From Sulfuricella sp. (lineage in GTDB: Bacteria; Pseudomonadota; Gammaproteobacteria; Burkholderiales; Sulfuricellaceae): a stretch of 19,241 nucleotides of DNA. The stretch is taken from positions 1-19,241 of the forward strand of contig JAIOJM010000066.1 of assembly GCA_019911785.1 (NCBI GenBank), given 5' to 3'. A model generated the notes under the pieces. It was not told the DNA's origin. It was given only the letters and a program-made list of their open reading frames with translations, and ran no database searches. A program made the position numbers and the translations under genes. Below are positions 909-17,989 of the stretch, one piece after another (the stretch's first letter is position 1; every line of letters starts with the position of its first letter).

Positions 909-1103
909 ATGGCTTTAACTCAATCAAATAGTTCAATAAGGCGCCTGCTTGAAGCGTTGCCGCGCGGCGAGGCCGTGAGCCTCTACCTGCCATTCAAGCC
1001 ATATCAGAAATTTGGCAAGACAGAGCCGCCTGAGCGCTGCAGCCTTGTGGAGCAGTTGGTAAGTCGGATATGGAGCCCTGCTCGACTGACAGAGTATTTA
1101 TGA
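909..1103 (+). CDS. Small hypothetical ORF translationally overlapping the SNF2 gene
   Basis: This is a 64-residue ORF beginning MALTQSNSSIRRLLEAL that I do not recognise. Its stop codon TGA (1101-1103) overlaps the preferred ATG of the helicase gene (1100-1102) as ATGA, the arrangement used for translational coupling; that is the main reason to take it seriously. It has no clear Shine-Dalgarno sequence and no recognisable domain, signal peptide or membrane segment. The N-terminus is faintly like the opening of some integrases, but the rest does not follow. It may be a leader ORF or a chance frame. Between guaA and this ORF I see only the att and arm sequences and no convincing gene; the frame at 705-887 is built from the repeats. 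Confidence 0.3.
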   Translation: MALTQSNSSIRRLLEALPRGEAVSLYLPFKPYQKFGKTEPPERCSLVEQLVSRIWSPARLTEYL

Positions 1104-3592
1104 AAAACAAATCGCCCAAACCAGGTGGCACCAAGACAACCAAGCCACCAAAAGAACCCAAACTCTCCCGTACTCAGGCGCCGGCGGAGCTGTCCCCTGT
1201 TGACTGGCAGCGTGCGCTACGCCGTCAGTTCGGTCGTGAGCAGACTTTCGGGCTGGAAAATATCGGCACGGAGCCGTTCTTTTCCGAGTTTCGCGTCAGC
1301 AACCCGCAGTCGAAGAGCGCCTATCGCGTGGCGATTCGCGGCAAGCAGCCGGGCGACAACTATTGCGCCTGCCCCGATTACGGTAGCAACGAACTGGGAA
1401 CCTGTAAACACATCGAGTTCGTTCTTGCCGTGCTGGAGAAAAAACGTGGCGCCAAGGCAGCCTTTACGCGCGGCTACCATCCGCCGTTCTCCGAACTCTA
1501 TTTGCGCAACGACAGTATGCGCAGCGTGCATTTCCGTGCCGGCACGGATTGTCCGCCAGCCGTGCGCAAGGCGGCGGTGCTGTTGTTCGACGAGGCACGA
1601 GAATGGCAGTTGCGGGATCTGCAATTGGATGGGCTGGAACGCTTTATCGCTCTGGCAGCAAAAAGCGGCCACGAGTTGCGAGCCTATGACGATGCGCTCG
1701 ATTTTCTTGCCGGGCGACGTGATGCGGAACGCCGGTCGCTTGCACTCGATGGCTTGTTCCCGCGAGGGGTGACCGATCCGTCGCTGAAGAGACTGCTCAA
1801 AGTGCCGCTCTACCCGTACCAGACAGAGGGTGCTTTGTTTGCCGTGCGCGCGGGCAGGGCGCTGATCGGCGACGAAATGGGCCTGGGCAAGACCATCCAG
1901 GCCATCGCCGCCGCCGAGATTCTGGCCCGGCATTTCGGCATATCGAAAGTGCTGGTGATCTGTCCGACTTCACTCAAATACCAGTGGCAAAGCGAGATAA
2001 TGCGTTTTTCAGGGCGTGACTCTCGCGTCATTGCCGGTGGTCGCTCCCAGCGCCAGAAAGACTATGCGCTGGACGACTTCTGCAAGATCACCAATTACGA
2101 AAAGCTCCAGCCCGATCTCGACCTGATCACTGCCTGGTCGCCGGACCTGGTGATCGTCGACGAGGCACAGCGGGTGAAGAACTGGAACACCATCGCCGCC
2201 CGTGCACTGAAACGCATCGACAGCCCCTACGCCGTGGTGCTCACCGGCACGCCGCTGGAAAACAAGCTGGAGGAATTGATCTCCATCGTCCAGTTCGTCG
2301 ACCAACACCGCCTTGGACCGACCTGGAAATTGCTGCACGAACACCAGGTCAAGGACGAGCATGGGCGCGTCACCGGCTACACCGGGCTGGAAAAGATCGG
2401 CCAGACACTGGCGCCGATCATGATCCGCCGCCGGAAATCCGAAGTGCTGCAACAGCTGCCGGAGCGCACCGACCAGAACCTGCTGGTGCCGATGACCGAA
2501 TTGCAGATGACTTACCACCAGGAAAACGCGGAGATCGTGACCAAGATCGTGCAGCGCTGGCGGAAGATGAAGTTCCTTTCCGACAAGGACCAACGGCGCT
2601 TGACCTGCGCCCTGCAGAACATGCGCATGTCGTGCAACAGCACTTATCTGCTTGACCAGGAAACTGATCACGGCGTCAAGGCGGATGAACTGGCGGCGTT
2701 GTTCGATGGCCTGTTCGAACAATCGGATGCAAAGGCCGTGGTGTTCAGCCAATGGACGCGCACCCACGACATCGTGATCCGGCGCCTGGAAGCGCGCGGC
2801 ATCGGCTACGTCAGCTTTCACGGTGGCGTCCCTTCGGAGAAACGCCCGGCGCTGGTGGAACGCTTCCGCGACGATCCCGATTGCCGCGTGTTCCTCTCGA
2901 CCGATGCCGGGGCGACGGGCTTGAATTTGCAACATGCATCCACCCTCGTGAATATGGATTTGCCGTGGAATCCGGCGCTGCTCGAACAGCGCATCGCCCG
3001 GATTCACCGCATGGGTCAGAAGAGGCCGGTGCGGATCGTCAATTTCGTCGCCAAGGGCACGATAGAAGAGGGCATGCTCTCGGTGCTGGCCTTCAAGCGT
3101 TCGCTGTCGGCGGGAATTCTCGACGGTGGAACGGGCGAGATATCGCTGGGCGGCTCGCGCCTCAACCGCTTCATGAAGGACGTCGAGAACGTCACCGGCC
3201 GCATGGGTGAAGGCGAGGCCATGACACCTGCCGAAGAAGCGGCAGGCGTGACGACCGTGACCGAAGCCACATCCGTGCCGGAAGAGAATACTGACGCAAA
3301 AGTCGGCGTTGGCGAGATGGCGATCCCGGAGCATGAGGGGCGAGATGTGTCAGAACAGACCCCGCGCAACGAAGCGGATCCTTGGCAAGCATTGGTGCTG
3401 GTTGGTGCTCAGTTGGTTTCTGCCCTCGGAGCGGCCAGCAATCCCGCTGCTCCGGCGCATCCATGGATCGAGCGCGATCCGGGTACCGGGGCGCAAAGTC
3501 TCAAACTCCCTTTGCCGCCACCGGAAACGGCGGGAAAAATTGCCGATGTGCTTTCACTGTTGGCGAACACCTTGCGGGGCCGACGCCCATGA
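1100..3592 (+). CDS. SNF2-family helicase/ATPase with N-terminal SWIM zinc finger
   Basis: A soluble superfamily 2 dsDNA translocase of 830 residues. A SWIM zinc finger CxCx(10)CxH lies at about residues 89-104 (C89, C91, C102, H104) after a Lys/Pro-rich, probably disordered N-terminus. The SNF2 core follows: Walker A GDEMGLGKT at 257-265, DEAQ Walker B at 354-357, motif III LTGTPLENK at 381-389, then the second RecA lobe with STDAGATGLNLQ, DLPWNP and the arginine-finger motif QRIARIHRMGQ. The last 150 residues are low-complexity and acidic. ATG 1100 is preferred over in-frame ATG 1070 because it overlaps the upstream stop (ATGA) and has an AGAG at 1091-1094. It is the only large gene of island A. 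Related bacterial SNF2 proteins act in transcription recycling (RapA) or in defence systems (DISARM DrmD). A stand-alone defence or DNA-remodelling role is inference. Confidence 0.93.
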   Translation: MKNKSPKPGGTKTTKPPKEPKLSRTQAPAELSPVDWQRALRRQFGREQTFGLENIGTEPFFSEFRVSNPQSKSAYRVAIRGKQPGDNYCACPDYGSNELGTCKHIEFVLAVLEKKRGAKAAFTRGYHPPFSELYLRNDSMRSVHFRAGTDCPPAVRKAAVLLFDEAREWQLRDLQLDGLERFIALAAKSGHELRAYDDALDFLAGRRDAERRSLALDGLFPRGVTDPSLKRLLKVPLYPYQTEGALFAVRAGRALIGDEMGLGKTIQAIAAAEILARHFGISKVLVICPTSLKYQWQSEIMRFSGRDSRVIAGGRSQRQKDYALDDFCKITNYEKLQPDLDLITAWSPDLVIVDEAQRVKNWNTIAARALKRIDSPYAVVLTGTPLENKLEELISIVQFVDQHRLGPTWKLLHEHQVKDEHGRVTGYTGLEKIGQTLAPIMIRRRKSEVLQQLPERTDQNLLVPMTELQMTYHQENAEIVTKIVQRWRKMKFLSDKDQRRLTCALQNMRMSCNSTYLLDQETDHGVKADELAALFDGLFEQSDAKAVVFSQWTRTHDIVIRRLEARGIGYVSFHGGVPSEKRPALVERFRDDPDCRVFLSTDAGATGLNLQHASTLVNMDLPWNPALLEQRIARIHRMGQKRPVRIVNFVAKGTIEEGMLSVLAFKRSLSAGILDGGTGEISLGGSRLNRFMKDVENVTGRMGEGEAMTPAEEAAGVTTVTEATSVPEENTDAKVGVGEMAIPEHEGRDVSEQTPRNEADPWQALVLVGAQLVSALGAASNPAAPAHPWIERDPGTGAQSLKLPLPPPETAGKIADVLSLLANTLRGRRP

Positions 3593-4015: not shown

Positions 4016-6112
4016 TCAGAACCCACCCTCGCGCCAAAATACCGTGAATATCTGGCGCAAGAAGCGCAGTCCCGGCGCTTCCCAAGTGCCGGCGATGGTG
4101 ACCCGGCCGCGCCAAGCATGCTGCATCGTGTCTCCGGCCGAGACGACTTTCAGCACCACCCGATAGACCGCCTGCTCCGGGTAGAGCACGCCGTTTTTCT
4201 CGCGCACCGGCACCTGGCCGCCGAACAGGCTGGCCAGTTCGGGTTCGCTCAGGGTACGCGTCGCATCGCGGTCAATGCTCGCCACCTCCAACCGCAGGTC
4301 GGGCCCGCCCATGCCGTCCGCGACGAACAGCGCCCGGTCGCCAGGTGCGATGCGATAGATGTCGCGGTCGTCGATATAGGCAACGACCTGGAGCTTGTCT
4401 TCCCGTACGTGCCAGCCGATCGCCTCGTGCTGGCCGACCCAGTCGCCGACGCGCAGATCGGGGTCGACATCGCGCAAGGTTCCGGCATAGGGCGCCACCG
4501 GCGCGTAGGCTGCGGCATCGGCTGACACCGTGCCGGCCTCGGCCTCGGCGGTCGCCAGCTGTTCGTTCAACACCTGCCACTGGCTGCGCTGATCGCTGTC
4601 GAACCCCGCCACCGCCGATTGCCACGACAGGCGTTTCTGGCGTGCATCGCTTTGTCCGGCACGCAGCTGTAATTCCGGCGAATCCATGCGCACCAGCAGC
4701 GTGCCGGCGTCCACGCGGGCATCAGTCGCCACCGGTAGCGCGACGATGCGCGCATGCGCGGGTGCGTAGATGGCGAATTGTTCCTGCGGCTGTAACAGCC
4801 CGCTCGTGCCGATCCGCGTCGGCCACGGCAACACGAACAGCACGGTCAGCGTGCCGGCCATCAGGGCGCTGCGCCGCGCCCGGCGGCTTCGCCGCAGTGC
4901 CGGCCAGCGTACCCGCCAGGCCTGGCTTTCGTGCCACAGCGGCAGCAGCACGAACCAGCCAATTTCGACGAGGAACAGGAATATGCCCAACGCTTTGATG
5001 AAAAAATGGTAGACCAGCACCGCAATGCCGAGAAACAGCACCAGCCGATAGACCCAGGTCGCCCAGGCGAACAGGAGCAGCGCGGTATGGCGATGCTGCG
5101 GGAAATGCTCGGGCACCGGCTCCCCCAGTGCGAAAAGCCGCTCGCGCAAGTCCCATCGGGCCAGCGCGAAGGCCCGCGCATGGAGGTTGGGAACCTGCAA
5201 ATAGTCGGAAAGCATGAAATAACCGTCGAAGCGAAGGAACGGGCTGGCGTTGATGGCGAGCGTGGCGATCCAGGTCGTCGTGGACAGCAGGAAGGCCGCC
5301 GACTTCGGCCAGCCTTCGGGCAGCCACACCCAGGCCAACGTCGCCCAGGCCGCGATCATCAGTTCGACGGCGATGCCGGCTGCGGCGACCTTGAGGCGCT
5401 GGTCGCGGCGTGTGAGTTTCCAAACTTCGTTGGTGTCGGTATAGGCCACCGGCCATAGCACCAGGAAGGCCACTCCCATCGTCGGCACGCGGCAACCGTA
5501 GCGCCTGGCAGTGAGGCCGTGGCCCAGCTCATGCAGCACTTTTACGGCAGCGATGGTGGCGCCGTAGGCGAATAGACCTTCCGTGCTCAACAGGTCCACG
5601 AGCGTTGCGGAAAAGCGTGCCCATTCGCGGTAAATGCCCAGCAGTCCGAAGACGCCAGCGGCCAAGGTAAGGTGCAGAAATCCCCGGCTATAGAGGAAAT
5701 CCAGGCGACCGGCCCAGCGGGCAAGCCAGCGGTCAGGCCGCACCAGGGGAATGCGGAAGAACAGGTAGTTGTGCAGCAGCCAGCGCGCCAGGCCGCCGCG
5801 TCGCCTTTGCAGCGCCTCGGCCAGACGGGCGGCGCTGCCCGGCTCGGGCTGCAGGAGTTGGTGTTCCTGATTGAACAGCGCGAGCCGCTCGACGTCGGCG
5901 GCCTCGATATGCAATGTGGTTTCCATGCAAACCGCTGCGGCGATGCTTTCGGCATCGCCCATGAACCAGCGGCTCAGTATCTCGAAGCTCGGCCAGTCGA
6001 TCTGGAAGAACTGGTTGCGCACCGGGTCGTGTAGCGTCCAGCTCGGCTGGCCGTCGGCCAGGTGGGACCCGGGCAACAGAGCCAGTTCCTCGCGCAGCGG
6101 CGGCAGCGCCAT
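4016..6112 (-). CDS. M50 (site-2-protease-like) membrane metallopeptidase fused to HlyD-like domain
   Basis: A 698-residue inner-membrane protein. A cytoplasmic N-terminal region of about 140 residues precedes roughly eight hydrophobic segments (about 145-160, 177-200, 210-225, 245-263, 273-290, 345-368, 370-392, 418-430). The zinc motif HELGH is at 194-198 within an M50 context (HELGHGLTARRYG). The second M50 motif NASPFLRFDGYF (289-300) supplies the probable third ligand D296, so the active site looks complete. Residues about 445-680 form a HlyD-like barrel-sandwich/beta-barrel stalk (APAHARIVALPV, GTLLVRMDSPEL, APVAPYAGTLRDV), expected in the periplasm. Its start overlaps the stop of the upstream adaptor gene by one base (TGATG), so it is the last gene of the adhesin operon. 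The context suggests it processes or exports the adhesin, or controls its release. Related M50-HlyD proteins occur in peptide-export clusters. The substrate is inferred. Confidence 0.88.
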   Translation of the reverse strand: MALPPLREELALLPGSHLADGQPSWTLHDPVRNQFFQIDWPSFEILSRWFMGDAESIAAAVCMETTLHIEAADVERLALFNQEHQLLQPEPGSAARLAEALQRRRGGLARWLLHNYLFFRIPLVRPDRWLARWAGRLDFLYSRGFLHLTLAAGVFGLLGIYREWARFSATLVDLLSTEGLFAYGATIAAVKVLHELGHGLTARRYGCRVPTMGVAFLVLWPVAYTDTNEVWKLTRRDQRLKVAAAGIAVELMIAAWATLAWVWLPEGWPKSAAFLLSTTTWIATLAINASPFLRFDGYFMLSDYLQVPNLHARAFALARWDLRERLFALGEPVPEHFPQHRHTALLLFAWATWVYRLVLFLGIAVLVYHFFIKALGIFLFLVEIGWFVLLPLWHESQAWRVRWPALRRSRRARRSALMAGTLTVLFVLPWPTRIGTSGLLQPQEQFAIYAPAHARIVALPVATDARVDAGTLLVRMDSPELQLRAGQSDARQKRLSWQSAVAGFDSDQRSQWQVLNEQLATAEAEAGTVSADAAAYAPVAPYAGTLRDVDPDLRVGDWVGQHEAIGWHVREDKLQVVAYIDDRDIYRIAPGDRALFVADGMGGPDLRLEVASIDRDATRTLSEPELASLFGGQVPVREKNGVLYPEQAVYRVVLKVVSAGDTMQHAWRGRVTIAGTWEAPGLRFLRQIFTVFWREGGF

Positions 6113-7491
6113 CAGAGCGCCAGGAACTGGTGTACTGCGGCCAGCGGCCGGCGCAGCACCCAGTAGCAGAACGGTACCCGGCCGCCGTAGATCCTGGCCG
6201 TGCCCTTAAGGCCGATGCGTTGGCCGGTCGCACCGTCGAGCGCCGCCCGCAGCCGGTATGCGTAGCTGCCATCCGGCCGCGGCACGGCGCCGTAGCTCAC
6301 GTAGCGCATATGGCCGGATACGGCGGAAAAGGGGCTAGCGGCGAGATAGAGGTCGGTTTGTGCCTGTTGTGGCAGCGGAATCGCGTCGCCGACGGCGATC
6401 CACGCCTCGATTTCCACCTCGTCGGGCATGGCCACCCGCATCACTTTCTCGCCGGTCTGCACCGGCCGACCGATCCATTCCGAGGGATCGTCGAAGATGG
6501 CGATGCCGTCCTGGGGGGTAACGACTTGGGCGCGTTCGAACTGGCCCTGGAGAAATTCCGCCTCGGCGCGTTTTTCGCCAATCTTGCCGAGTAGCACGGC
6601 GAGCTGCCCCTTTGCTTTGGCGTCGGTCAAAGCGATCTGCGCGATCTGGCGATATTCGGTTTCTGCCGTCTCCAGCGCCTGACGGGCCATTTCGAGCCGG
6701 CTGGCGATGGGCGCTTCGTCGAAGCTGAACAGCGGCTGTCCGGCCTTCACCACAGCGTTTGGCTGCACGTGAATCTGCCCGATTACGCCATCGAGCGGCG
6801 CGCGGATGACGGCTGGATGCGCCGGCACCAGTTCACCCGGCGCAAGCACCGTCAATCGCACCGGAAACAGCAACGCCGCCAGCACGGCCAGGCCGATCTG
6901 CACCGGGCGGCGGCGCCACCACTTGCCATGGGCATCGTCGGCCAGCCACGCGGAGAGCTTTTCCCGCAGCAGCGCCGCCGACCACGGCGGCGCACGAAAA
7001 CGCGCCAGCCAGGCGTGGCGCCAAGCGTCGATCCACTCGCCGAGCAGCGCCAGCGTCGCGTCGGCATAGCGGACATCCCCCGCCAGCAGCAGGCCGCCGC
7101 GCGCGCTGCCCGGATGATCGGCGCTCCCCAGCAGCGGCAGCCAGACGGCTTCGCCCGGTAGCCAGTCTGCCCATTCCGCCGCGACAGCGGCCGGCACGTC
7201 CGCCGACGTCACTCGTTGCGGCGCCGCGATGACGCAAAGTTCGCGGCACAGGCGATCGAGCCATTGCACATAAGGGGCATTGCCCTCCGGCTGGATCACC
7301 CCCGACAGCGTGCGCACGCCGCCGTCCTCGAACCACAGCGCCGCCTGCCGGTAGGGTGCCAGCGCGCGGCTGTCGTTGACCAGCAGGAACGCCAGCTCCT
7401 CGGCGCTCGCCGCCGCGCGGGCATGGTGGCACAGCTCGACAAGGGCGAGCAGCGGATTGGCGGGCGACGCTTCACCTTGCGGAAGACTCAT
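6112..7491 (-). CDS. HlyD-like membrane-fusion protein with N-terminal GAF-like domain
   Basis: This 459-residue protein has an unusual order. An N-terminal domain of about 20-165 resembles a GAF sensor domain (LVELCHHARAAASAEELAFL, then PYRQAALWFEDGGVRTLSGV). Next come an amphipathic linker, a single membrane helix at about 196-215 preceded by KWWRRR, and a HlyD-type periplasmic adaptor (APGELVPAHPAVIRAPLDG, coiled-coil arms about 265-335, second lipoyl half VVTPQDGIAIFDD, then a beta-barrel). The positive-inside charge puts the GAF-like part in the cytoplasm and the adaptor in the periplasm. The ATG overlaps the adhesin stop codon as ATGA (7488-7491) and there is no good Shine-Dalgarno, so it is probably translationally coupled to the adhesin. 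A role as signal-gated adaptor of the export apparatus is inference. The GAF call rests on pattern only; a degenerate sensor fold is the alternative. Confidence 0.85.
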   Translation of the reverse strand: MSLPQGEASPANPLLALVELCHHARAAASAEELAFLLVNDSRALAPYRQAALWFEDGGVRTLSGVIQPEGNAPYVQWLDRLCRELCVIAAPQRVTSADVPAAVAAEWADWLPGEAVWLPLLGSADHPGSARGGLLLAGDVRYADATLALLGEWIDAWRHAWLARFRAPPWSAALLREKLSAWLADDAHGKWWRRRPVQIGLAVLAALLFPVRLTVLAPGELVPAHPAVIRAPLDGVIGQIHVQPNAVVKAGQPLFSFDEAPIASRLEMARQALETAETEYRQIAQIALTDAKAKGQLAVLLGKIGEKRAEAEFLQGQFERAQVVTPQDGIAIFDDPSEWIGRPVQTGEKVMRVAMPDEVEIEAWIAVGDAIPLPQQAQTDLYLAASPFSAVSGHMRYVSYGAVPRPDGSYAYRLRAALDGATGQRIGLKGTARIYGGRVPFCYWVLRRPLAAVHQFLAL

Positions 7492-10400
7492 GCGCGCACG
7501 CGGCTCGCCGCCTGGGCGCTACGCGACAGGGCGGCCAGGTGCTCGGCCAGAACCGGCGGGTGCCTGGTGAGACGCAACTGCTCGCTCAGGCTGGTGCGAC
7601 CCTGCGGACCCGGGCGGATGCCGGTGTCGCGCCCCTGCCCGCGGCCTACATCCTGGCTCTGTTCATGGCCGACAACGATGCGAAAGGTAGCGACCGCCTC
7701 GCGCCCTTGCGCGTCGCGGGCAACGACTTTGATATAGAGCTCGCCGCTCGCGCCGGCGGGCGGCTGCACCTTGAATTTGCCGCTGGCGGCATCGAAGGAA
7801 ACCCAGGCGGGCAGCGGCTGCCCGTTCATTTGCGCCGCCTGTAGCTGCACTATGGCATTCGGATCGGTGTGGGCAAAGGCGTCGGCCGGAATGGCGATTT
7901 CCGTTCGTGCTGCCGGTTCCAGGATGGTGTCGGGCATGCCGCGATTGACGACCAGCGTGTCCGCCGCCCCGTCCGCCTTGGGGATCACCACCGCCTGGAA
8001 TCCGCTGGGGTTGGGCGGCTGAGTCAGGACAAAGGCGGCTTCGCGCGGCGGTGCCTCGCTAACCGGGCGGGTTGCGCCCGGCGCAGGGAATGCCGGTACG
8101 GTTATCGGAGCCGGTGGCGTCATCGTGCCAATCGCATTGAGGTTCGCCAGCGTTGGCGCGCTGACCGACGACGTCTCACTAACGAACACGATCGTCGTGG
8201 TTGTTGGCGCGGTTATCGGCACTGCGGGTGGTTCAGGCGTCGGCGCGGCCGTCGGCGGCGTGCTCATCGCCGTCGTTGGGGGCAACGGGGGCGGGACCAG
8301 CGCAGCCGTGTACGTGGATGCCGCCGTCCGGGTGCTGCGACCGTCGTCGGCCGTCACCAGCACCTTGACGTGCTTGTTGAGGTCGGATGAGGTCGACACG
8401 TAGGTGTTGGCGGTCGCTCCGGCGATCATCGCTTCGTTCGTGCCGCTGGCATCGTCGGCGCGGTACCACTGGTAGCTGTAGGTGAGCGTATCGCCGTCGG
8501 CGTCGCTCCACGAGCCGCTGCCAGCGGTGAGCTGGCTGCCGACCGTCGTTGTACCGCCTATGCTCGGCACCACTGAGTTGTTCGGCGCCGTGTTGGCAAT
8601 CACGCTGCGCGTCGTGGCTGCCGTCACCGTGTTGCTACCGTGGCCGTCGTCGGCCGTCACCACCACCTTGACGAACTTATGGGCGTCCGCCGTCGCCAGC
8701 GTGTAGGCGCTCGCGGTGGCGCCGGAGATAGCCGCTTCGTTGGTGCCGCCGGCATCGTCGGCGCGGTACCACTGGTAGCTGTAACTCAGCGTGTCGCCGT
8801 CGGCATCCGTCCAGGTGCCGCTGCTTGCCGTCAGTTGGCTGCCCACGGTCATCGTGCCAATGATCGTCGGCACCGCCGCGTTGACCGGCGCGGTGTCGGC
8901 GATCGCGCCGCGTGCCGAAATCGCGGTCTGCGTATTGCTACCGTGGCCGTCGTCGGCGGTGACCACCACCTTGACAAACTTATGGGCGTCCGCCGTCGTC
9001 AGCGTGTAGGCGCTGGCGGTGGCGCCATTGATGGCTGCTTCATTGGTGCCGTTGGCATCGTCGGCGCGGTACCACTGGTAGCTGTAGGTGAGCGTGTCGC
9101 CGTCGGCGTCGCTCCACGTGCCGCTGCCAGCGGTGAGCTGGCTGCCGACCGTCGTTGTACCGCTGATGGTCGGCACCGCCGTGTTGCCTGGCGGCGAGTC
9201 GGTCACCAGAGTCCAGGCGGTGGCGGCGGTCGGCGTGTTGCCGTGGCCATCGCTGGCCGTGACCACGGCGCGCACGTACTGGTGCGCTTCGGCGGTGGTC
9301 GCGGTGTAGCTGCTATTCGTGGCGCCGACGATGTTCGCCGCGCCTGTGCCGGCGTTATCGCTCGCGCTCTGCCACTGGTACGAATAGGTTACGGGGTCAC
9401 TGTCGGGATCGCTCCAGGTGCCCGTGTCGGTCGAGAAGGCGCCGCCGCCGACCGTTGTGCCGCCGCCGATCGTCGGGGCGATGCTGTTGGCGGGCGACGC
9501 ATTGTTGACGACCAAGGCCGGCGTCGAGTAGGCCGCTGCGGTGGCGGTGCCGTCGCCGGCAATGACTTTCACATAAACGTACTTGGTGTTATCCGCCGAC
9601 ACCAGGGTATAGCTGTTGGCGGTGGCGCCAGCGATAGCGGCTTCGTTGCTGCGGCTGGCGTCGTCGGCACGGTACCACTGGTAGCTGTAGGTCAGCGTGT
9701 CGGCGTCGGCATCGCTCCAGGTGCCATGATCGGCGGTCAGTTGATTGTTGACCGTATGGGTGCCGCTGACTGCGGGAACCACATCGTTGGCCGGCGCCGA
9801 GTTGGCGACGGCGCTACGTGTTGTGGCAGCGGTCTGGTCGCTGCTGCCGTGGCCGTCGTCGGCGGTGACCACGACCTTGACGAACTTGTGGGCGTCGGAA
9901 CTCGCCAGCGTGTAGGTGGCGGCTGTGGCGCCGGAAATCGCCGCTTCGTTCGTGCCATTGGCATCGTCGGCGCGATACCACTGGTAGCTGTAGCCCACCG
10001 TATCGGCATCTGCGTCCGTCCAGGTGCCGCTGCCGGCGGCGAGCTGGCTGCCTACGGTCATCGTGCCGGTGATCGCCGGCAGCGCCGCGTTGGCTGGGGC
10101 GGTGTTGGCGATTGCGCTGCGCGTCGAGGCTGCCGTCACCGTGCTGCTGCCGTGGCCGTCGTCAGCGGTCACCACGACCTTGACGAACTTGTGGGCGTCG
10201 GAACTAGCCAGCGTGTAGGTGGCGGCGGTGGCGCCATTGATGGCCACTTCATTGGTGCCGCTGGCATCGTCGGCGCGGTACCACTGGTAGCTGTAGGTCA
10301 CGCTGTCGCCGTCGGCGTCGCTCCAGGTACCGCTGCCGGCGGCGAGCTGGCTGCCCACCGTCGTCGTGCCGCTGATGGTCGGCACCGCCGTGTTGGCTGG

Positions 10401-13400
10401 CGCCGAGTCGGTCACCAGAGTCCAAGCGGTGGCGGCGGTCGGCGTGTTGCCGTGGCCATCGCTGGCCGTGACCATGGCGCGCACGTACTGGTGCGCTTCG
10501 GCGGTGGTCGCGGTGTAGCTGCTATTCGTGGCGCCGACGATGTTCGCCGCGCCTGTGCCGGCGTTGTCGCTGGCGCTTTGCCACTGGTACGAATAGCCGA
10601 TGGTGTCGCCGCCGGCGGTGGCGTCGGTCCAGCTGCCGTTGGTGGTGGTGAAGGCCGTGCCGCCGACGGTGGTGCCGCCGCCGATGGCCGGGTTGGTGCC
10701 GCACACCGGCGCCGGGTCGAAACTGACGGCGAAGGTCTTGGCGGAGGCCGCCGCCGCGACGGCGTTGCCGGCCAAGTCCTTGACGGAGCCGCCGTTGATG
10801 CCGATGGTATAGGTGCCGGCGTCGCTCGTATCCCAACTGCCGCCGGGCGGCGTGACGGTGTAGGTCACGGTGTTGCCGCTGGCGGAAATACCGGTGACGG
10901 TCAGGGCGTTGTTGGACGGGTCCTTGACCGTGACGTTGCCGGTGCCGAAGGTGGCGGTGTCGATGCCGGCGCCGGCGTCGGCATAGGCGACGGTAAAGCT
11001 GAAGCTGGTGCCGCCGGGCGCCGAGAGGTCCGCAGCCACCGGCGTGCCCGCAGTCGGCGCGGTGCTGTCGAGCGTAATCGCGTTGGCCGAATGCGCGCTG
11101 ACGTTGCCGGCGGCATCGACGGTATAAACGTAGTAGCTGCCGTCGGCGAGCCCCGTCGCCGCAATCGTGGTGTTCGTGTTCGCCGCCGCGACCGTCGTCG
11201 CCTTGGCCGTGCCGGCGGTGACGGCGTTGTCGAGCGAGGCCATGTCGGTCACCGTGACCGACGCGGCGACCAGGTAGGCCTTGCCGGTTTCGGTGCTCTG
11301 CGCCGTCGTCACGCTGGTCGAGTTGGTCTGCGTCGCGGCGGTGACCGAGGCGGTGGGCGCGGCGGTGTCGAGCGTATAGGCCTGGCTCTTGACCGTGCCG
11401 TCGTTGCCGGCGAGATCGGTGACTTTGATCTGGAGGGTGCCGCTGCCGGAAAGCGTCACGCCGTTCCAGGTCAGCGCGGTGCCGGAGACCTTGCTGGTGA
11501 TGTCGGCCCAGGTGGCGCCATTGTCGAGCGAGCCGTAGACGACGTCCGTTCCGGCCGGCGTTCCGCTCAGCGTCGCGGTGATGGTCTGGGAGGCCGTGTT
11601 GGTGATGAAGTCGCTGCCGCTCGTGCCGGTGTCGTTGGAGAAGGCGAGATTGCTGAAGGTGATGGCCGGGGCGGTCTTGTCGAGCGCGATGCTGCGCGCG
11701 CCGCTCAGGGCGCTGGTCAGCGAACCCGTCGCCGAGGTGACAACGGCATAGATGTTGTAGGTGCCGTCGGATACGCCGCTGGTGGAAAGCCCAGTCACCG
11801 ACCACGAGCCGTTGCTGAGCGTGGCGGTGGCGGTCGGATCGGTGCCGGCGTCGTAGCTGCCGTTGGCGGTCTTGTCGAGGAACACGCGCACCGTGCTGGC
11901 GGAGTCGCCGGCCGCGCTGGTGCCGGAGAGGTCGAGGCTGGCGGCGTTGGTGACGTTGTCATTATTGTAGGTGCCGCGGTCGCTGGCCGCAGCCAGGGCC
12001 GGCGTGCCGGGCGCGGCGGGGGTGACATTGACGCTGATGGTGCGGGTCGTGCTCGCCGTGCCGTCGCTGACCTGTATCTGGAAGCTGTCGCTGCCCGCGA
12101 AGCCGGTCGTGGGCGTGTAGGTGAGCATGCCGCCGGGGGTAATGTCGGCGCTGCCGGAATTGGCGGTGGCGCCGGTAATAGTCAGGCTGCCGTGGCTGGG
12201 CGCGGCGGCCTGCGTCCAGGTTTCGGTCTGGCTGGCGTCGCTGTCGCTTGCGTGCACCAGGGAGGCGAAGTCGGTGGCCGAGGCGTTCTGCGCGATGTTC
12301 AGCGTGGTGCCGGTGGCCGTGAAGGTGGGGGCGGTGTTGGCGGCCACCGGGTCTGAAAAATCGATGTTGTCCAGTGTGATGCAAACCCCGCGGGTTTCAC
12401 CCGCTGCCCGAATGAATCTCACAGTATCGATTTGGTTCCACGAGGTTCCGAACGAAAGCACCCCCGCGCCATAGTTAGCCGAGTTCCTGGTGTAGGCAAT
12501 TGCCGCATTGCCGGAACCGTAGGAGCCGCTCGCCTGGAAGTTGAATCCGCTGACCCTTACAACTTCTGTTCCACTGCTACCGCCATCGTATCCGACGATG
12601 TCGAAATTCTGGGCGAAGGAAGCACTTGTGTCATAAGCATTTCCCGCCAGGGAAACCAGCTTGAAGTTGCTGCCATCCGAGGTTCCGAATTCGAACTGGG
12701 AAATACCCGTATCGGCTGATCCGGCAAAATCGGATACCAGCCCCTTGCCGGAAAATCCCGTGATGTTTTCGCCGAAATAAGCGATCAGATCGTCAATGAC
12801 ATCTGGAGTCGCAATGCCATTCGATGCGTAGGTAATGCCGTCGACAACAAGGCTGGTCGCGGAATTGTTCGAATTGTTGTTGCTCTCGAAGTTCTTGTCG
12901 GATGGTGTTGCAAGAAGCCAGGCGAAGCCTGCCGCCCGTTGCGCATCGACAATAACGGCCGACTCTATGCTTCCTTTCTCGATTTCGAGTGCCCAATTCC
13001 CGCCTAGACCCGCCGCTCCGGTCGCATCGTTCGAGGCCGCCACGTCGCACCCGACACTACCAGCCAGTGCATCGACAAACGCTTGGCCATCCGCTCCCTT
13101 GGCGATGTCGCAACCGTAGAGCAGCAAATCACCGCCCGACTTCATGGCATGGCCGATCTCGGCGAGTTCAGCTTGCACGACCGGGGCGAACAAACTGTCA
13201 TTGGTGAGAGTATCGCTGCCTAGGCGCAGGGTAGCCTCATTGCCGTGGCTCATGAGGTGGATGGCATCGTAGCCGGTATGGGTTTCGGCCCACTTGGCGA
13301 TCTGCGCGAGGCCGCTCTTGCTACCGTCGATTTCCTGGATTTCCACGCCGGCGCGGATGCCGGCTTCGAGCGTCTTGTAATCGGCGACCGAGGTGTCGAC

Positions 13401-13736
13401 GAAGGAGACCTCCTTCTTGCCGCCGTTCTGGCTCGGATCGGCCGCGCGTACCTGCACGGGTGTGGGGGCGTCGGGGATCAGCGCCTTGGCGGCGGCATCG
13501 GGCAAGGCGTGAGCGGCATCTGCAATAGCGGCGCCGTCAAACATGAAGCGTTGTTCGAGGGCCAGCGGGCGAATACAGGGCAAGGGAAGGCGGCGCGACT
13601 CGTTGGGCGCGGAGGCTGCTGTCGCGCGCGTAGCGCAACGGCTCGTTGTCCGCTTGCCGCGGCTGCGGACGGTTTCGGCGACGGCGACGAAGCTGCGGGT
13701 GACTTCGTTCCAGACGGTGCGGTAGAGGTGGTTCAT
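7488..13736 (-). CDS. Giant DUF4347 / cadherin-like repeat adhesin with ESPR-like leader
   Basis: A 2082-residue predicted surface or secreted adhesin. ATG 13736 is chosen over 13832 because it has GGGAG seven bases upstream and starts exactly at MNHLYRTVWNEVTRSF, an ESPR-type motif. An LEPR-like motif (LEQRFMFDGA, 60-69) follows, with no hydrophobic signal core between. Residues about 108-272 are DUF4347, with SHG (H164) and LLLYGCD (C209). Residues 280-460 are a beta-rich Asn/Gly/Ser module, 465-573 a cadherin-like domain (SDSD, DSFQIQVSDG), and 575-1008 bacterial Ig-like domains. Residues 1009-1813 hold eight repeats of about 100 residues (SYQWYRADDA, TADDGHGS). A Pro/Thr-rich linker, a dystroglycan/cadherin-like domain (PAWVSFDAASGKF) and a 59-residue tail follow. 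There are no RTX nonapeptides and no autotransporter barrel. First gene of a three-gene operon; adhesion or biofilm function is inferred. Confidence 0.9.
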   Translation of the reverse strand: MNHLYRTVWNEVTRSFVAVAETVRSRGKRTTSRCATRATAASAPNESRRLPLPCIRPLALEQRFMFDGAAIADAAHALPDAAAKALIPDAPTPVQVRAADPSQNGGKKEVSFVDTSVADYKTLEAGIRAGVEIQEIDGSKSGLAQIAKWAETHTGYDAIHLMSHGNEATLRLGSDTLTNDSLFAPVVQAELAEIGHAMKSGGDLLLYGCDIAKGADGQAFVDALAGSVGCDVAASNDATGAAGLGGNWALEIEKGSIESAVIVDAQRAAGFAWLLATPSDKNFESNNNSNNSATSLVVDGITYASNGIATPDVIDDLIAYFGENITGFSGKGLVSDFAGSADTGISQFEFGTSDGSNFKLVSLAGNAYDTSASFAQNFDIVGYDGGSSGTEVVRVSGFNFQASGSYGSGNAAIAYTRNSANYGAGVLSFGTSWNQIDTVRFIRAAGETRGVCITLDNIDFSDPVAANTAPTFTATGTTLNIAQNASATDFASLVHASDSDASQTETWTQAAAPSHGSLTITGATANSGSADITPGGMLTYTPTTGFAGSDSFQIQVSDGTASTTRTISVNVTPAAPGTPALAAASDRGTYNNDNVTNAASLDLSGTSAAGDSASTVRVFLDKTANGSYDAGTDPTATATLSNGSWSVTGLSTSGVSDGTYNIYAVVTSATGSLTSALSGARSIALDKTAPAITFSNLAFSNDTGTSGSDFITNTASQTITATLSGTPAGTDVVYGSLDNGATWADITSKVSGTALTWNGVTLSGSGTLQIKVTDLAGNDGTVKSQAYTLDTAAPTASVTAATQTNSTSVTTAQSTETGKAYLVAASVTVTDMASLDNAVTAGTAKATTVAAANTNTTIAATGLADGSYYVYTVDAAGNVSAHSANAITLDSTAPTAGTPVAADLSAPGGTSFSFTVAYADAGAGIDTATFGTGNVTVKDPSNNALTVTGISASGNTVTYTVTPPGGSWDTSDAGTYTIGINGGSVKDLAGNAVAAAASAKTFAVSFDPAPVCGTNPAIGGGTTVGGTAFTTTNGSWTDATAGGDTIGYSYQWQSASDNAGTGAANIVGATNSSYTATTAEAHQYVRAMVTASDGHGNTPTAATAWTLVTDSAPANTAVPTISGTTTVGSQLAAGSGTWSDADGDSVTYSYQWYRADDASGTNEVAINGATAATYTLASSDAHKFVKVVVTADDGHGSSTVTAASTRSAIANTAPANAALPAITGTMTVGSQLAAGSGTWTDADADTVGYSYQWYRADDANGTNEAAISGATAATYTLASSDAHKFVKVVVTADDGHGSSDQTAATTRSAVANSAPANDVVPAVSGTHTVNNQLTADHGTWSDADADTLTYSYQWYRADDASRSNEAAIAGATANSYTLVSADNTKYVYVKVIAGDGTATAAAYSTPALVVNNASPANSIAPTIGGGTTVGGGAFSTDTGTWSDPDSDPVTYSYQWQSASDNAGTGAANIVGATNSSYTATTAEAHQYVRAVVTASDGHGNTPTAATAWTLVTDSPPGNTAVPTISGTTTVGSQLTAGSGTWSDADGDTLTYSYQWYRADDANGTNEAAINGATASAYTLTTADAHKFVKVVVTADDGHGSNTQTAISARGAIADTAPVNAAVPTIIGTMTVGSQLTASSGTWTDADGDTLSYSYQWYRADDAGGTNEAAISGATASAYTLATADAHKFVKVVVTADDGHGSNTVTAATTRSVIANTAPNNSVVPSIGGTTTVGSQLTAGSGSWSDADGDTLTYSYQWYRADDASGTNEAMIAGATANTYVSTSSDLNKHVKVLVTADDGRSTRTAASTYTAALVPPPLPPTTAMSTPPTAAPTPEPPAVPITAPTTTTIVFVSETSSVSAPTLANLNAIGTMTPPAPITVPAFPAPGATRPVSEAPPREAAFVLTQPPNPSGFQAVVIPKADGAADTLVVNRGMPDTILEPAARTEIAIPADAFAHTDPNAIVQLQAAQMNGQPLPAWVSFDAASGKFKVQPPAGASGELYIKVVARDAQGREAVATFRIVVGHEQSQDVGRGQGRDTGIRPGPQGRTSLSEQLRLTRHPPVLAEHLAALSRSAQAASRVRA
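8297..10712 (-). repeat. Eight Ig-like coding repeats in a duplicated four-unit block
   Basis: The SYQW signature recurs at about 300-bp intervals near 10583, 10277, 9977, 9671, 9371, 9066, 8763 and 8462. Units 1 and 5 are a distinct type (QWQSASDNAGTG, AEAHQYVRA) and the others are of QWYRADDA type. Unit n and unit n+4 lie about 1.21 kb apart for all four pairs. The DNA around 10388-10590 and 9178-9380 is nearly identical, including synonymous positions, so the four-unit block was duplicated recently or is homogenised by gene conversion. Confidence 0.9.
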
Positions 13737-13743
13737 GGCGGTG

Positions 13744-13748
13744 CTCCC
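13744..13748 (-). promoter_or_regulatory. Ribosome binding site deciding the adhesin start
   Basis: GGGAG on the minus strand, seven bases before ATG 13736. It supports the ESPR-like start MNHLYR. The longer in-frame start at 13832 has an N-terminus with no family resemblance. Confidence 0.65.
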
Positions 13749-13815
13749 GGAATCAAGGCCGGCTCGGTTCGGGCAGGCAGGGCGTTGTCGAGTTTGCGGC
13801 GGGGGTCGGCAAGGC

Positions 13816-13856
13816 TTGTATTTGTCGGCCAAAACGATAAACTGTGCATATATGCA
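13816..13856 (+). promoter_or_regulatory. Candidate promoter and operator of the toxin-antitoxin pair
   Basis: TTGTAT (13816-13821), 16 bases, then TAAACT (13838-13843) gives a plausible sigma-70 promoter. It is followed directly by the perfect 12-bp palindrome tgcatatatgca (13845-13856) just upstream of the antitoxin start. RHH antitoxins usually repress their own operon at such palindromes. The stretch is AT-rich against its GC-rich surroundings. It also lies in the upstream region of the divergent adhesin gene, so binding could affect both. Confidence 0.45.
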
Positions 13857-13878
13857 TATAAAAAGCGAGGTGATGAAG

Positions 13879-14109
13879 ATGCAAAAGCGAATGACTATTT
13901 CGATCGATGAAGCGGTCTATGAAGGTCTGGTTCGGGTCGTCGGGCGGCGGAAGATCAGCCGCTACCTGGAGGACTTGGCGCGCCCTCACGTTGTCAAGGA
14001 CGACCTGGAAGCTGGCTACGAGGCCATGGCCAAGGACAAGCGGCGCGAGCATGAAGCGCGCGAGTGGAGCGAAGGGCTGATCGGGGACGTGGCCGATGCT
14101 GCGCGGTGA
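13879..14109 (+). CDS. Ribbon-helix-helix type antitoxin (partner of PemK/MazF toxin)
   Basis: A 76-residue protein with an N-terminal ribbon-helix-helix pattern ([17 protein letters not shown] followed by [12 protein letters not shown]). A charged helical C-terminus ([16 protein letters not shown]) is the likely toxin-wrapping region. ATG 13879 is preferred over 13873 because GAGG (13867-13870) then sits eight bases upstream. It overlaps the toxin gene by 14 bases, typical of a type II module with the antitoxin first. It is expected to bind DNA as a dimer, repress the operon and neutralise the toxin. It is read divergently from the adhesin gene and is the only plus-strand operon inside the export cluster, which suggests later insertion. 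Confidence 0.85.
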
Positions 14110-14422
14110 GGTCTGGTGGGTGGAGTTCGATCCGGCAGTCGGTAGCGAGATCAGGAAAACCCGACCGGCCGTGATCGTGAGCAACAACGCATCGAACAAA
14201 TACATGGCTCGTGTCCAAGTGGTGCCGCTCACGAGCAACACCGGGCGCTTGTATCCGAGCGAAGCCGTGGTGAGCGTGGCCGGCAAGCAAAGCAAGGCGA
14301 TGGCCGACCAGATCGCGACGGTGGACAAGCAGCGCTTGAAGGAGCGGCTGGGCCAGCTTTCCCGCGAAGACATGACGGCTGTCGAGAAGATCATAAAGAT
14401 TCAGTTGGGAATCCCGCTTTGA
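14096..14422 (+). CDS. PemK/MazF-family endoribonuclease toxin
   Basis: A 108-residue protein with the PemK/MazF fold signatures: [27 protein letters not shown] at the N-terminus (conserved Gly-Glu-Val-Trp start and the Arg-Pro-Ala loop), then VQVVPLTSN and [12 protein letters not shown]. Members cut mRNA at short sequences and stop growth when the antitoxin is lost. Length and all main motifs look intact, so the toxin is probably active. It starts inside the end of the antitoxin gene and converges on the adaptor gene ending at 14480. The role in stabilising the island, given that no integrase is present, is inference. Confidence 0.92.
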
Positions 14423-14479
14423 GGATACTGAGCTTCCCCAAAAACAGGCAAAATCTGGGACAGCCCCCGGTTTTCCGCT

Positions 14480-15280
14480 TCATTTCCCCTCCGGTTGCGC
14501 CATCAGCACCTTGCCGCTCATGCCGGCGATCAGATCCTTGAAGCGGCCGTCGATGACGGCGGTGAGCTTGACCGACTGGCTCACCGGGTCTACGCGGGCG
14601 CCGATGCGCAGCACCTTGGCCGGGTAGGTCTTGGCGGTTTCGTCGATGCTGACCTGGAAGCCGGCGCCGGGTTTGAGCCACACCAGCCATTTCGAGGGAA
14701 CGATGAATTCGAGTTCCAGCGCGGAATCGTCGAGGATTTCGAGCAGCGCCTGGCCGGGCTGGACGTATTGCTGTTCGCGCACTTTCTGCTCGGCGATGCG
14801 GCCGGCGAAGGGAGCCGCCACGGCGCACTTGCTGATCACGGCGGCGTAGGCAGCGACTTCGGCGCGCGCTTTCATGGCTTCGGCTTCCGAGGTTTCGAGC
14901 TCCACCTTGCCGACCGAATGGAGCTCCATCAGGCGGCGGTTGGCGTCCCGGATTTTCTCGGCGCCGCCGAGGGCGGCCCGGGCCTTGTCGAGTTGGGCCT
15001 GCTGTAGCGTGCAGTCGAACTGGATCAGTGTCTGGCCATGGCGGAAAGCCGCGCCTTCGGGCAGCGGCAGGCGGCTTACCTTGGCGCCGATTTCGGCTGC
15101 CAGCGTGGTGTAGCGGCGCGGGGCGAGCTGGGCGCGGATTTCGCGCCGGTCGAGGGCGCTCGGCGCGGTGGTGGGGGGCGTTATGGTGTTCTTTTGCATT
15201 GCATTTGCGCCGCTATTGTCGGCGCAGACGACGCCGGCCCAGAGGCAGCCTGCGAGCAGCAGGGGAAGCGGCGCTTTCAT
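14480..15280 (-). CDS. Periplasmic adaptor (RND/HlyD membrane-fusion type), short
   Basis: A 266-residue exported adaptor. The N-terminus MKAPLPLLLAGCLWAGVVCA is a Sec signal with likely cleavage after VVCA. An LLAGC lipobox-like string lies so early (Cys12) that lipidation is uncertain. Barrel-sandwich halves are seen at about 58-92 (LAAEIGAKVSRLPLPEGAAF) and 152-185 (KCAVAAPFAGRIAEQKV), with a short coiled-coil between (about 93-148) and a beta-barrel after (DSALELEFIVPSKWL). It is shorter than RND adaptors such as AcrA (about 400), having a reduced hairpin. The start overlaps the TolC-like gene stop as ATGA (15277-15280), so the two are cotranslated and likely form an adaptor-pore pair. 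No RND pump or ABC transporter is adjacent. Confidence 0.88.
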   Translation of the reverse strand: MKAPLPLLLAGCLWAGVVCADNSGANAMQKNTITPPTTAPSALDRREIRAQLAPRRYTTLAAEIGAKVSRLPLPEGAAFRHGQTLIQFDCTLQQAQLDKARAALGGAEKIRDANRRLMELHSVGKVELETSEAEAMKARAEVAAYAAVISKCAVAAPFAGRIAEQKVREQQYVQPGQALLEILDDSALELEFIVPSKWLVWLKPGAGFQVSIDETAKTYPAKVLRIGARVDPVSQSVKLTAVIDGRFKDLIAGMSGKVLMAQPEGK

Positions 15281-16848
15281 TTGCGCTCGGACGTTGTGAC
15301 CAAGGGCGCCTGTTTTTCCTCGGGCGTGGACAGCAGCGCGGCGCTACCGGAATTCCATGCCACGATGGCGCGCCCAACCGCCGCGCGCAGATCGGCGAGC
15401 GGGATGTCTTCCTGTGCGCCGATCAGCGGTTCGAGGCCCAGCGTCGCTTGCAGCTTGGCGGCGGCGGTCTGGGCGTTGGACAGCGCCTGGTAGCGTCGCA
15501 GTTGCGAGAGGATGGTGGCGGTCTGCTGTGCGACGCGGTCGAGCCGGGTCTGTTTCCCGGCCTCCTCCTGGTTGGCGACGTGCCCGGCCAGGCGTGCGTC
15601 CACTGCGGCGATGGCGTCGGCGCGCGCAAACTGGTGGGCGGCGTTGGCATATTGCAGGCGTGCGATGTGCAGTTGCGTGAGCACGGCCATCTGCGTGGTC
15701 ATGCGCTTCTGGTCGGCCAGCATGACGCCGGCATCGGCGAGGCGCATCTGCGCGGGCGCCGCGAGCAGGCCGAGCAGGTTGAGCGAAAGTTGCGCGCCAA
15801 CTTCGTTCCAGTTCTGGTTGATGAGGTAACTGTCGTTGCTGGTCTTGACGGCGTAGTTGAACGAGAGCCCCGGGAATATCTTGAGCAGGGTACGGCGGGT
15901 TTCCTGCTGCGCGATGCGACCGTTGTAAATGCTTTCGCGCAGGTCGGGGTTGTTGAGCAGCGCGCGTTCTTCCATCTTGTCGACGGAGACATCGAGCCAG
16001 ACGGTGTTCACGCCGGCGGCGGGCTCGACGACGGTGAATGAGTGTGCCAGCGGCAGGCTGGCGAGCGCGGCGAGTTCGATGCGTGCGGTGGAAAGTTCCT
16101 GTTCGATGGTTTCGAGCAGGCGCAGGTTTTCGAGTACCTGGCGCTGGTAACGTAGCGGTTCGACGGGCGAGCGCTGCCTCTCGTTCTCGGCTTGCCTGGC
16201 GTCGGCGAGCGCCGCTTCGGCCTCCGCAATGGTGCTGCGCAGGGTGCCGATAAGCTGTTGGGCGGCGACCACGCGCCAGTAGGCGGTGCGCACGTCCTGG
16301 ATCAGGTTGTGCAGCGACTTGCGGCGGTGCTCGGCGGCGATCAGGACGCGGTCGGCATTCTGCCTGGCGGCGTAATAGCTCTGGCCGAAATCCAGCAGGC
16401 TCCAGGAGAAGCCGAGGTCGGTGGTGCTGGCCGAGCGATCGGAGGAGATGAATGGGTTGGCGAGCGAGGGCGCGCCGGTGACCGAATCTTTGCTGCGCGT
16501 GGTGAGATCGTTGTTGCGGCTATGGTAGCCGGCGGCGGCGACCAGCTTGGGCAGCATGTCGTATCTGCCGACGTCGAGGGTGCCGGCGGCGATCGCCTCT
16601 TCCATCGCCTTGAGGCGGCGTTCCGCGTTGTACTTAATGGCCCGCGCGATGGCGTCTTCGAGCGTGAGCGGCCCGTTCAGCGGTTCAACGCCGCGCGCCA
16701 GCGCCAGTTTGTCGGCATGAGCTGTTTCGGCGATTTCGGCGCTACGTAGCGCTTCAGGCTGTAAGGAGGCACAGCCTGCAAGCAGCAGAGCAGCCGCTGC
16801 GCTTGCAGCAAAGGCGTAGCGGGAAGGGCGCGGCCGGGAGGTTCGCAT
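15277..16848 (-). CDS. TolC-family outer-membrane efflux/secretion lipoprotein
   Basis: A 523-residue outer-membrane channel of the TolC/OEP family. The N-terminus has a basic n-region, a hydrophobic Ala/Leu core and lipobox LLAGC with Cys26, so it is probably lipidated like OprM-type proteins. Two long helical OEP halves follow, with LTLEDAIARAIKYNAERR and NLIQDVRTAYWRVVAAQQLI in the first, and NPDLRESIYNGRIAQQETRRTL plus AVLTQLHIARLQYANAAHQF in the second. It would supply the outer-membrane exit duct for the adhesin. First gene of the upper operon, preceded by a candidate AraC operator and an inverted repeat. No strong Shine-Dalgarno is seen before ATG 16848. The family call is firm; its partnership with the adhesin genes is from context. 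Confidence 0.93.
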   Translation of the reverse strand: MRTSRPRPSRYAFAASAAAALLLAGCASLQPEALRSAEIAETAHADKLALARGVEPLNGPLTLEDAIARAIKYNAERRLKAMEEAIAAGTLDVGRYDMLPKLVAAAGYHSRNNDLTTRSKDSVTGAPSLANPFISSDRSASTTDLGFSWSLLDFGQSYYAARQNADRVLIAAEHRRKSLHNLIQDVRTAYWRVVAAQQLIGTLRSTIAEAEAALADARQAENERQRSPVEPLRYQRQVLENLRLLETIEQELSTARIELAALASLPLAHSFTVVEPAAGVNTVWLDVSVDKMEERALLNNPDLRESIYNGRIAQQETRRTLLKIFPGLSFNYAVKTSNDSYLINQNWNEVGAQLSLNLLGLLAAPAQMRLADAGVMLADQKRMTTQMAVLTQLHIARLQYANAAHQFARADAIAAVDARLAGHVANQEEAGKQTRLDRVAQQTATILSQLRRYQALSNAQTAAAKLQATLGLEPLIGAQEDIPLADLRAAVGRAIVAWNSGSAALLSTPEEKQAPLVTTSERK

Positions 16849-16984: not shown

Positions 16985-17989
16985 CTATCTCGGCTTCCGC
17001 TGGCGCAGCTTGCCTGGCGGATAACCGAATTTTTTCCGGAATGCGTTGATGAAGTTATTGACGTGTGAAAAACCGATTCGTTCCGCCAGCACTTTCATGG
17101 GCACATGGCTTTCCTGTAGCGCCAGATGCGCTTCGCGCAGCCGGTGTTCGGTGATGAAGGTGTAGATCGACTGCCCGTATTCCTGTGCGAATCGGTCGTT
17201 CAAAGACTTGACGGGCATGCCGTAGCGCATTGCCAGCTGTTCGAGCGTCGGCAGCTTGCCTTCAAGCCGCATCAGGTCGTCGTGCAATTGGCGCACGGCA
17301 TTGCGCCAGCGCACTTGGCAGGGTATGGTTTGCGGTTCGGTGGCCACGTGTGCTGCCAGGATGCAAAGATATTCGAGCAGTTTCGATTGTGCAAAGAGCC
17401 TCTTCAGTGGCCCGGAAAATGCTGGTGACATGATGGCGCATAGCGGTGCCGAAACGTGAGGCGGCATCGCCGCCATTTTCACGACGGGTGCCGGGTTCAG
17501 GCCCAGACCGGTCAGCAGACGGTCTGCCAATTCGTCGCCGAGCAGTTCGGCGAGCAGCGTGTCGGTGAGGGCAAAACCTGACACTTCGCTGTCGGAAGAG
17601 GCGTCGATCATCTGCCGGACGTGGAATCTGTCAGCATGGCGAAAGAAATCGACGCCCGGCTTGAGGATCAATTCCGCTGCCGGAAAGCGCTCATGGCGGT
17701 GGCAGATGCCGCCGCGTATGGTCGCCGCGTGGAAGGTAAGCTCTGCAAACGACGACTGGATTTCCCCTGTCAGTACCAGATTTCCGGCTGCTTCCGGGAG
17801 GAATCGATGGGTGGCTTTGAAGACCCGTGCGCCTTCGGCGAGCACCAGGTATTCGAACCAGCCTTGGCCGATTTCCGCCGGGAACGGGTAATCAAGGCGG
17901 TGGACGGCGGCGCTTGCCGGGCCGGCCATACCGTCGTTACCGCCGACGGATGGATCGATCAACCAGCGAATGTCTATTTCACGGTGCAT
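16985..17989 (-). CDS. AraC-family transcriptional regulator
   Basis: A 334-residue cytoplasmic regulator. The C-terminal ~95 residues hold the two helix-turn-helix motifs of the AraC family: LEQLAMRYGMPVKSLNDRF, then MKVLAERIGFSHVNNFINAFRKKFGYPPGKLR with the signature F-x-x-x-FGYPP. The N-terminal 220 residues have no recognisable cupin or ligand-domain motif and presumably sense a signal or dimerise. It lies directly upstream of and in the same direction as the TolC-adaptor operon, with 136 bases between that contain a 21-bp direct repeat. It is the likely local regulator of the export cluster, probably an activator. The start ATG 17989 has only a weak upstream Shine-Dalgarno. The ligand is unknown. 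Confidence 0.92.
   Translation of the reverse strand: MHREIDIRWLIDPSVGGNDGMAGPASAAVHRLDYPFPAEIGQGWFEYLVLAEGARVFKATHRFLPEAAGNLVLTGEIQSSFAELTFHAATIRGGICHRHERFPAAELILKPGVDFFRHADRFHVRQMIDASSDSEVSGFALTDTLLAELLGDELADRLLTGLGLNPAPVVKMAAMPPHVSAPLCAIMSPAFSGPLKRLFAQSKLLEYLCILAAHVATEPQTIPCQVRWRNAVRQLHDDLMRLEGKLPTLEQLAMRYGMPVKSLNDRFAQEYGQSIYTFITEHRLREAHLALQESHVPMKVLAERIGFSHVNNFINAFRKKFGYPPGKLRQRKPR

Follow-up and report, generated by a model that had tools for sequence, protein, structure and literature searches.

A five-gene module without an ABC transporter gene as a candidate export system for a giant adhesin-like protein

The locus and its five genes

A 19,241-nucleotide stretch of DNA from Sulfuricella sp. 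(contig JAIOJM010000066.1 of assembly GCA_019911785.1), hereafter the window, carries five genes on its minus strand that encode a TolC-family outer-membrane protein, a small periplasmic adaptor, a giant DUF4347/Ig-like protein, a GAF-HlyD-type protein and an M50-HlyD fusion, as identified by open reading frames (ORFs), Pfam and NCBIfam. An earlier note on this DNA had linked a giant adhesin to a TolC-like pore and three adaptor-type proteins, and ORF calling and Pfam place all of them at the positions given below. The five-gene content and the conservation of the module are confirmed. That it is dedicated to the export or surface display of this one giant adhesin-like protein, in a type 1-like manner without an ATP-binding cassette (ABC) transporter, we put at about even odds (roughly 0.5).

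The TolC-family protein (523 residues, 15277 to 16848) matches OEP PF02321 with 114.7 bits. It is followed by the small RND-type adaptor (266 residues, 14480 to 15280), which matches HlyD_3 (71.4 bits) and HlyD_D23 as well as TIGR01730 above its cut-off. The giant, the likely substrate, is encoded by an ORF of 2114 residues (7488 to 13832) with a DUF4347 domain (164.4 bits; ORF residues 142-306, 12915 to 13409) and Ig-like repeats; the name adhesin is suggested by this architecture. The GAF-HlyD-type protein (459 residues, 6112 to 7491; HlyD_3, 59.2 bits) and the M50-HlyD fusion (698 residues, 4016 to 6112; Peptidase_M50, 37.4 bits; HlyD_3, 35.2 bits) complete the set, and the last three ORFs overlap successively by 4 and 1 bases. 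Neither an ABC nor a SecA protein was detected by Pfam and NCBIfam among the nine window proteins scanned, a scan of the window for Walker and ABC-signature patterns gave no match, and the claim that the locus lacks a HlyB/LapB-type ABC transporter thus holds. The window has no RND, MFS or ABC pump gene either, and no LapG-type periplasmic cysteine protease domain was found by Pfam among the same nine proteins.

All sixteen M50-HlyD relatives examined match both Peptidase_M50 and HlyD_3, and the HExxH motif expected of a site-2 protease (M50; residues 194-198, 5519 to 5533 in the window) and a downstream N..PF.RFDGY are invariant in all sixteen. In a wider set HExxH was present in 25 of 25 proteins and the pattern for N..PF.RFDGY missed three (L062, L088, L089). 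The structure model of the fusion is poor, with a mean predicted local distance difference test score of 62, and a comparison of its profile with solved structures yielded nothing convincing (best expectation value, E, 0.049). The earlier note had placed this protein and a GAF-HlyD adaptor where the ABC transporter usually stands; the fusion and the HlyD_3 matches are borne out, but Pfam calls no GAF domain in the window protein or in 14 relatives at E up to 10. GAF-HlyD has an adaptor fold with best matches to MacA, AcrA and MexA, and one predicted membrane segment. Its name is a softer point: it draws on the predicted order of helices and strands in the first 165 residues, which is compatible with a GAF domain, and on the annotation of relatives in a 2015 paper (PMC4452313).

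The giant bears the tags LE[QP]RFMFDGAA at its N-terminus (LEQRFMFDGAA in the window, 13527 to 13559; aligned in 23 giants) and GRxSLSEQLR at its C-terminus (GRTSLSEQLR, 7572 to 7601), and no obvious signal peptide. Its true start is probably codon 33, at about 13736, where a match to ESPR PF13018 (44.4 bits) begins. This ESPR-type N-terminus, a feature of type V secretion, precedes the tag (13611-13736, minus strand), and similar N-termini occur in L001, L004 and L096. The hydrophobic signal core that follows ESPR in type V substrates was not found by hydropathy, and many other giants begin shortly upstream of the N-terminal tag with no ESPR-like stretch.

Conservation of the module and of the tags

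A genome scan with the M50-HlyD alignment yielded 114 loci, the best 80 of which were retained; those closest to the window include Zoogloea, Thauera and Rhodocyclaceae (69-71% identity). GAF-HlyD lies immediately before M50-HlyD in 79 of the 80 loci and in the sole exception (L079) the M50 match starts 16 bases from the locus end, so the linkage of the two is not due to chance. An ORF for a giant is usually found upstream of GAF-HlyD; L023, L030 and L041, all three from Herbaspirillum, have it downstream on the opposite strand. Among the 80 loci, tblastn with the window proteins as queries gave 22 with DUF4347, 20 with the adaptor and 17 with TolC; many of the loci end before these genes. Escherichia coli replicons have all five genes in order: giant (4460 residues), TolC, adaptor, GAF-HlyD and M50-HlyD. 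Matches were found in 25 of 5426 E. coli genomes, extending across at least 80% of the locus in 22. The five-gene copies of E. coli (L083, L094, L095) reside on IncF-type plasmids and on chromosomes and are flanked by insertion sequence elements. One Azospirillum plasmid has a similar gene set in which the giant is divided among several ORFs.

The pattern LE.R.[MLI][FLM]D[GAS] gives 32 matches in 81 locus sequences, one per locus and always near the start of the ORF for the giant. Simple hydropathy revealed no signal-like hydrophobic core ahead of the tag: 30 of 32 giants stay below 2.0, and the two that exceed it have the segment in question downstream of the tag. A profile of 23 aligned N-terminal sequences was searched against 300 genomes sampled from the order of Herbaspirillum sp. 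RV1423 (G005, the genome of L007). It matches 32 genomes, some of them in short ORFs (G143, G316, G238), namely all 30 with a window-type M50-HlyD (>500 bits, a cut between window-type and SecA-linked proteins that was chosen once the scores had been seen to drop from 545 to 248 bits) and 2 of the 270 others (Fisher p about 3e-39, overstated since the sampled genomes are related). Of these two, G149 has a contig (L096) that breaks off within the giant, and G238 a decayed module with fragments of TolC, GAF-HlyD and M50-HlyD.

At the other end of the giant, the strict GRxSLSEQLR pattern is found in 46 of the 71 ORFs that end at GAF-HlyD, at least four of which are not the giant, versus 1 of 646 other ORFs. 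A relaxed pattern, designed after inspecting the misses of the strict one, finds 61 of 71 versus 2 of 646 controls, one of the two being itself a giant. The giants have a conserved C-terminal motif, which may act as a secretion signal.

ABC transporters and the SecA-linked sister branch

Genome searches covered 46 of the 80 loci, in mostly draft genomes and with only the top candidates of each genome scored; a type 1 ABC transporter was accepted above the cut-off of any of three NCBIfam models. LssB/LapB-type proteins were found in 28 of the 46 genomes, PrtD-type in 18 and HlyB-type in 12. Eight genomes (G005, G008, G017, G019, G024, G033, G035, G037) have none above any of the three cut-offs. 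Most of the eight do encode HlyB-like or other ABC proteins with lower scores, and in three (G019, G024, G037) none of the ABC matches listed covers a peptidase-like N-terminal region. Of the 30 module genomes in the 300-genome sample 19 lack the LssB/LapB type above cut-off. Because of these counts, from mostly draft genomes, a dedicated type 1 transporter elsewhere in the genome that always accompanies the module, the finding that the earlier note had named as fatal to its proposal, can be said not to have emerged. LssB-type proteins are mildly enriched in module genomes and not required. A second SecA above cut-off is absent from 37 of the 46 genomes; given these 37 and the eight without a type 1 ABC transporter, neither dedicated motor seems to be required.

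The ABC genes near L006, L046 and L068 resemble urea, molybdate and peptide importers. The contig of L096 (G149) carries TolC and adaptor genes with 51% and 53% identity to those of the window, and upstream an LssB-type ABC gene and an adaptor-like ORF. The idea that the N-terminal tag also serves ABC-linked giants was rejected for this case, because the contig stops inside the tagged giant and the M50-HlyD gene would lie past its end.

Kamneva, Poudel and Ward (2015, PMC4452313) have described loci in which a secondary SecA_DEAD protein is encoded beside M50-HlyD, GAF-HlyD and HlyD proteins and no ABC transporter is present; in their proposal SecA_DEAD acts as the ATPase and M50 as the pore. 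Among titles we found no later work on these loci, subscription journals being mostly outside the coverage. Nine of our 46 genomes have a second SecA_DEAD match above cut-off, at ten places (two in G016). An M50-HlyD is encoded at all ten, with 25-38% identity to that of the window, a GAF-HlyD match was found at nine and a DUF4347 match at four. A tree separates the ten SecA-linked from fifteen other M50-HlyD proteins on one branch with 100/100 support, its root not being known, and the E. coli protein falls on the side of the window. In four Zoogloea genomes (G001, G009, G042, G043, with L001, L012, L073 and L074) the SecA-less module coexists with a SecA-linked locus that has a DUF4347 giant.

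The two branches differ in the tags of their giants. The N-terminal tag profile has no match in six genomes that have only the SecA-linked M50-HlyD. Conversely, two of three SecA-linked giants tested match LEPR-XLL (NF012209) above cut-off and the third just below, and none of three window-type N-termini tested, including that of the window, matches it. At E <= 1e-4, a cut picked after looking that excludes 12 of 38 genomes with LEPR-XLL, this model matches 26 of the 300 genomes, all within the 34 that have at least two SecA_DEAD matches, a count that fragments or contamination can also produce; eight of these 34 have no such match. Each M50-HlyD branch thus appears to have its own tag form, and substrates of the secondary SecA system may be marked by LEPR-XLL. 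Some ORFs tagged with LEPR-XLL exceed 14,000 residues. The LEPR-XLL model gives weak matches to ten window-type tags as well (E 2e-4 to 0.006), which suggests that MFDGAA and LEPR-XLL are related versions of a common tag.

Further genes lie within and around the module. Between adaptor and giant the window has genes for a PemK/MazF-like toxin and its probable antitoxin on the opposite strand (13735-14422, plus). At the same place another gene family recurs in six loci (L007, L013, L014, L019, L028, L040), with Sel1 repeats in L007, the one scanned; in the Pseudomonas locus L048 the position is taken by a sulfotransferase-like gene, and in L059 by an ORF of about the same length. An AraC-type regulator gene directly upstream of TolC (16985-17989, minus) could control the latter. 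A SNF2-family helicase gene (1070-3592, plus) adjoins the module and is preceded by the end of an ORF (2-631) that is presumably guaA.

Interpretation and comparison with known systems

We infer a scheme in which the N-terminal, possibly PqqD-like domain of M50-HlyD (residues 20-93, 5834 to 6055) would bind the N-terminal tag and recruit the giant to the inner membrane, where the M50 site would cut or hold the tagged end. The HlyD parts of M50-HlyD and GAF-HlyD would form, with the small adaptor, the periplasmic conduit to TolC. GAF-HlyD might gate the M50 step in response to a cytoplasmic ligand; control of export by proteolysis and sensing, which the earlier note had also suggested, is conjectured from the domains. 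The motor would not be specific to the module. The presence of a dedicated SecA paralog in the sister branch makes the SecA/SecYEG of the cell the most likely candidate, with the membrane potential as a second option. PqqD-like domains bind leader peptides in peptide-maturation systems. SecA-linked M50-HlyD proteins match PqqD above cut-off in 6 of 7 tested, and their profile aligns collinearly with that of the window-type proteins from residue 20 of the window protein (E 5.6e-61).

Several observations weigh against this scheme. It would be unusual for a protein with no signal peptide to pass through SecYEG. Among window-type proteins Pfam calls PqqD in none of 16, with E values up to 10 allowed, and in none of a set of 3, and taken by itself the N-terminal part shows weak similarity to the SecA-linked proteins (E 0.006, probability 6%; eight control segments at E of at least 0.14); for these two reasons tag reading by this domain is a matter of inference. 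LssB-type transporters are somewhat commoner with the module (11 of 30 versus 49 of 270 other genomes; one-sided p 0.02, inflated by kinship). Linkage to an ABC gene is not conserved, but a type 1-like ABC gene does occur in the flanks of 3 of the 80 loci (L005, L008, L078) and upstream in L096, in a pattern scan that used simple ORF calls and flanks of up to 10 kb often ended by the contig.

The mild enrichment of LssB-type transporters could indicate type 1 secretion of the usual kind, with an unlinked HlyB-, LapB- or PrtD-type ABC transporter shared as motor and the module supplying adaptors and pore. At least one such transporter above a cut-off is present in 38 of the 46 module genomes, and the C-terminal motif is positioned like type 1 signals. 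The eight remaining genomes, the lack of a conserved linkage and the variation of the ABC families between genomes, none of which occurs in every genome, make this explanation unlikely in our view. Slightly less credit is due to a retention and release device, in which the giant would be exported by other means, tethered by its N-terminal tag to M50-HlyD and freed by proteolysis upon a signal from GAF-HlyD. Its logic is similar to that of LapD/LapG, and it accounts for an N-terminal tag, an intact protease motif and a domain of sensor type occurring together in the module; it leaves the linked TolC and adaptor and the conserved C-terminal tag unexplained.

The ESPR match of the window giant and the similar N-termini of a few others would fit a Sec-dependent, type V-like export with ESPR as Sec signal and TolC passing the protein on. 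With no hydrophobic core before the tag and many giants devoid of an ESPR-like stretch, we consider this improbable. Least credible is a small-molecule efflux pump with the adhesin gene merely adjacent: the small adaptor and TolC are from families that are used in efflux too, but the window holds no pump gene, and the N-terminal tag accompanies M50-HlyD in 30 of 30 genomes.

Dedicated export of the giant, our preferred explanation, leads to a wider and more tentative proposal of tag-guided giant export, in which each of two branches would pair an N-terminal tag, MFDGAA in one and LEPR-XLL in the other, with a PqqD-like/M50/HlyD receptor of its own; the LEPR-XLL branch would have a private SecA and the MFDGAA branch no private motor. 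If true, the logic of an ABC transporter with a C-terminal signal would not explain it, and the SecA-less branch would move proteins of thousands of residues without a motor of its own. An ABC transporter is generally regarded as necessary for the export of giant surface proteins; a widespread module without one, present in 30 of the 300 genomes sampled from one order and, across at least 80% of its length, in 22 of 5426 E. coli genomes, raises the question of the driving force. The tags let likely substrates be recognised by sequence alone, and from the SecA-linked sister a function can be proposed both for the LEPR-XLL domain and for the secondary SecA proteins found in Gram-negative bacteria.

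Compared with type 1 secretion of giant adhesins (LapA and SiiE type), the module shares adaptors, a TolC-like pore (HlyD_3, OEP) and a giant repeat protein with no obvious signal peptide; it differs in that a dedicated ABC transporter was not found in the window and in the fusion of adaptors to a protease and to a sensor-type domain. With the intramembrane metalloprotease of daptide biosynthesis (NF041824) it shares an M50-like membrane domain (153.9 bits, under the cut-off of 300); in the module this domain is joined to a periplasmic adaptor, and the linked gene encodes a giant protein instead of a peptide precursor. LEPR-XLL proteins likewise carry a short N-terminal LExR tag on giants, but their strong matches track secondary SecA. 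The closest relative is the secondary SecA_DEAD locus, which has M50-HlyD, GAF-HlyD, a further HlyD protein, sometimes OEP and no ABC transporter, with DUF4347 giants near four of ten such loci. The distinct system that the earlier note envisaged is thus distinct in having no ABC transporter of its own, but its kind was already described in 2015; giant substrates and tags do not figure in the parts of that paper (PMC4452313) that were covered. The module is an ABC-less and SecA-less sister of the locus type known since then, set apart by the missing secondary SecA, a separate M50-HlyD branch and a different N-terminal tag; as far as the literature searched goes, the branch without a motor of its own and the tags that go with it seem to be new.

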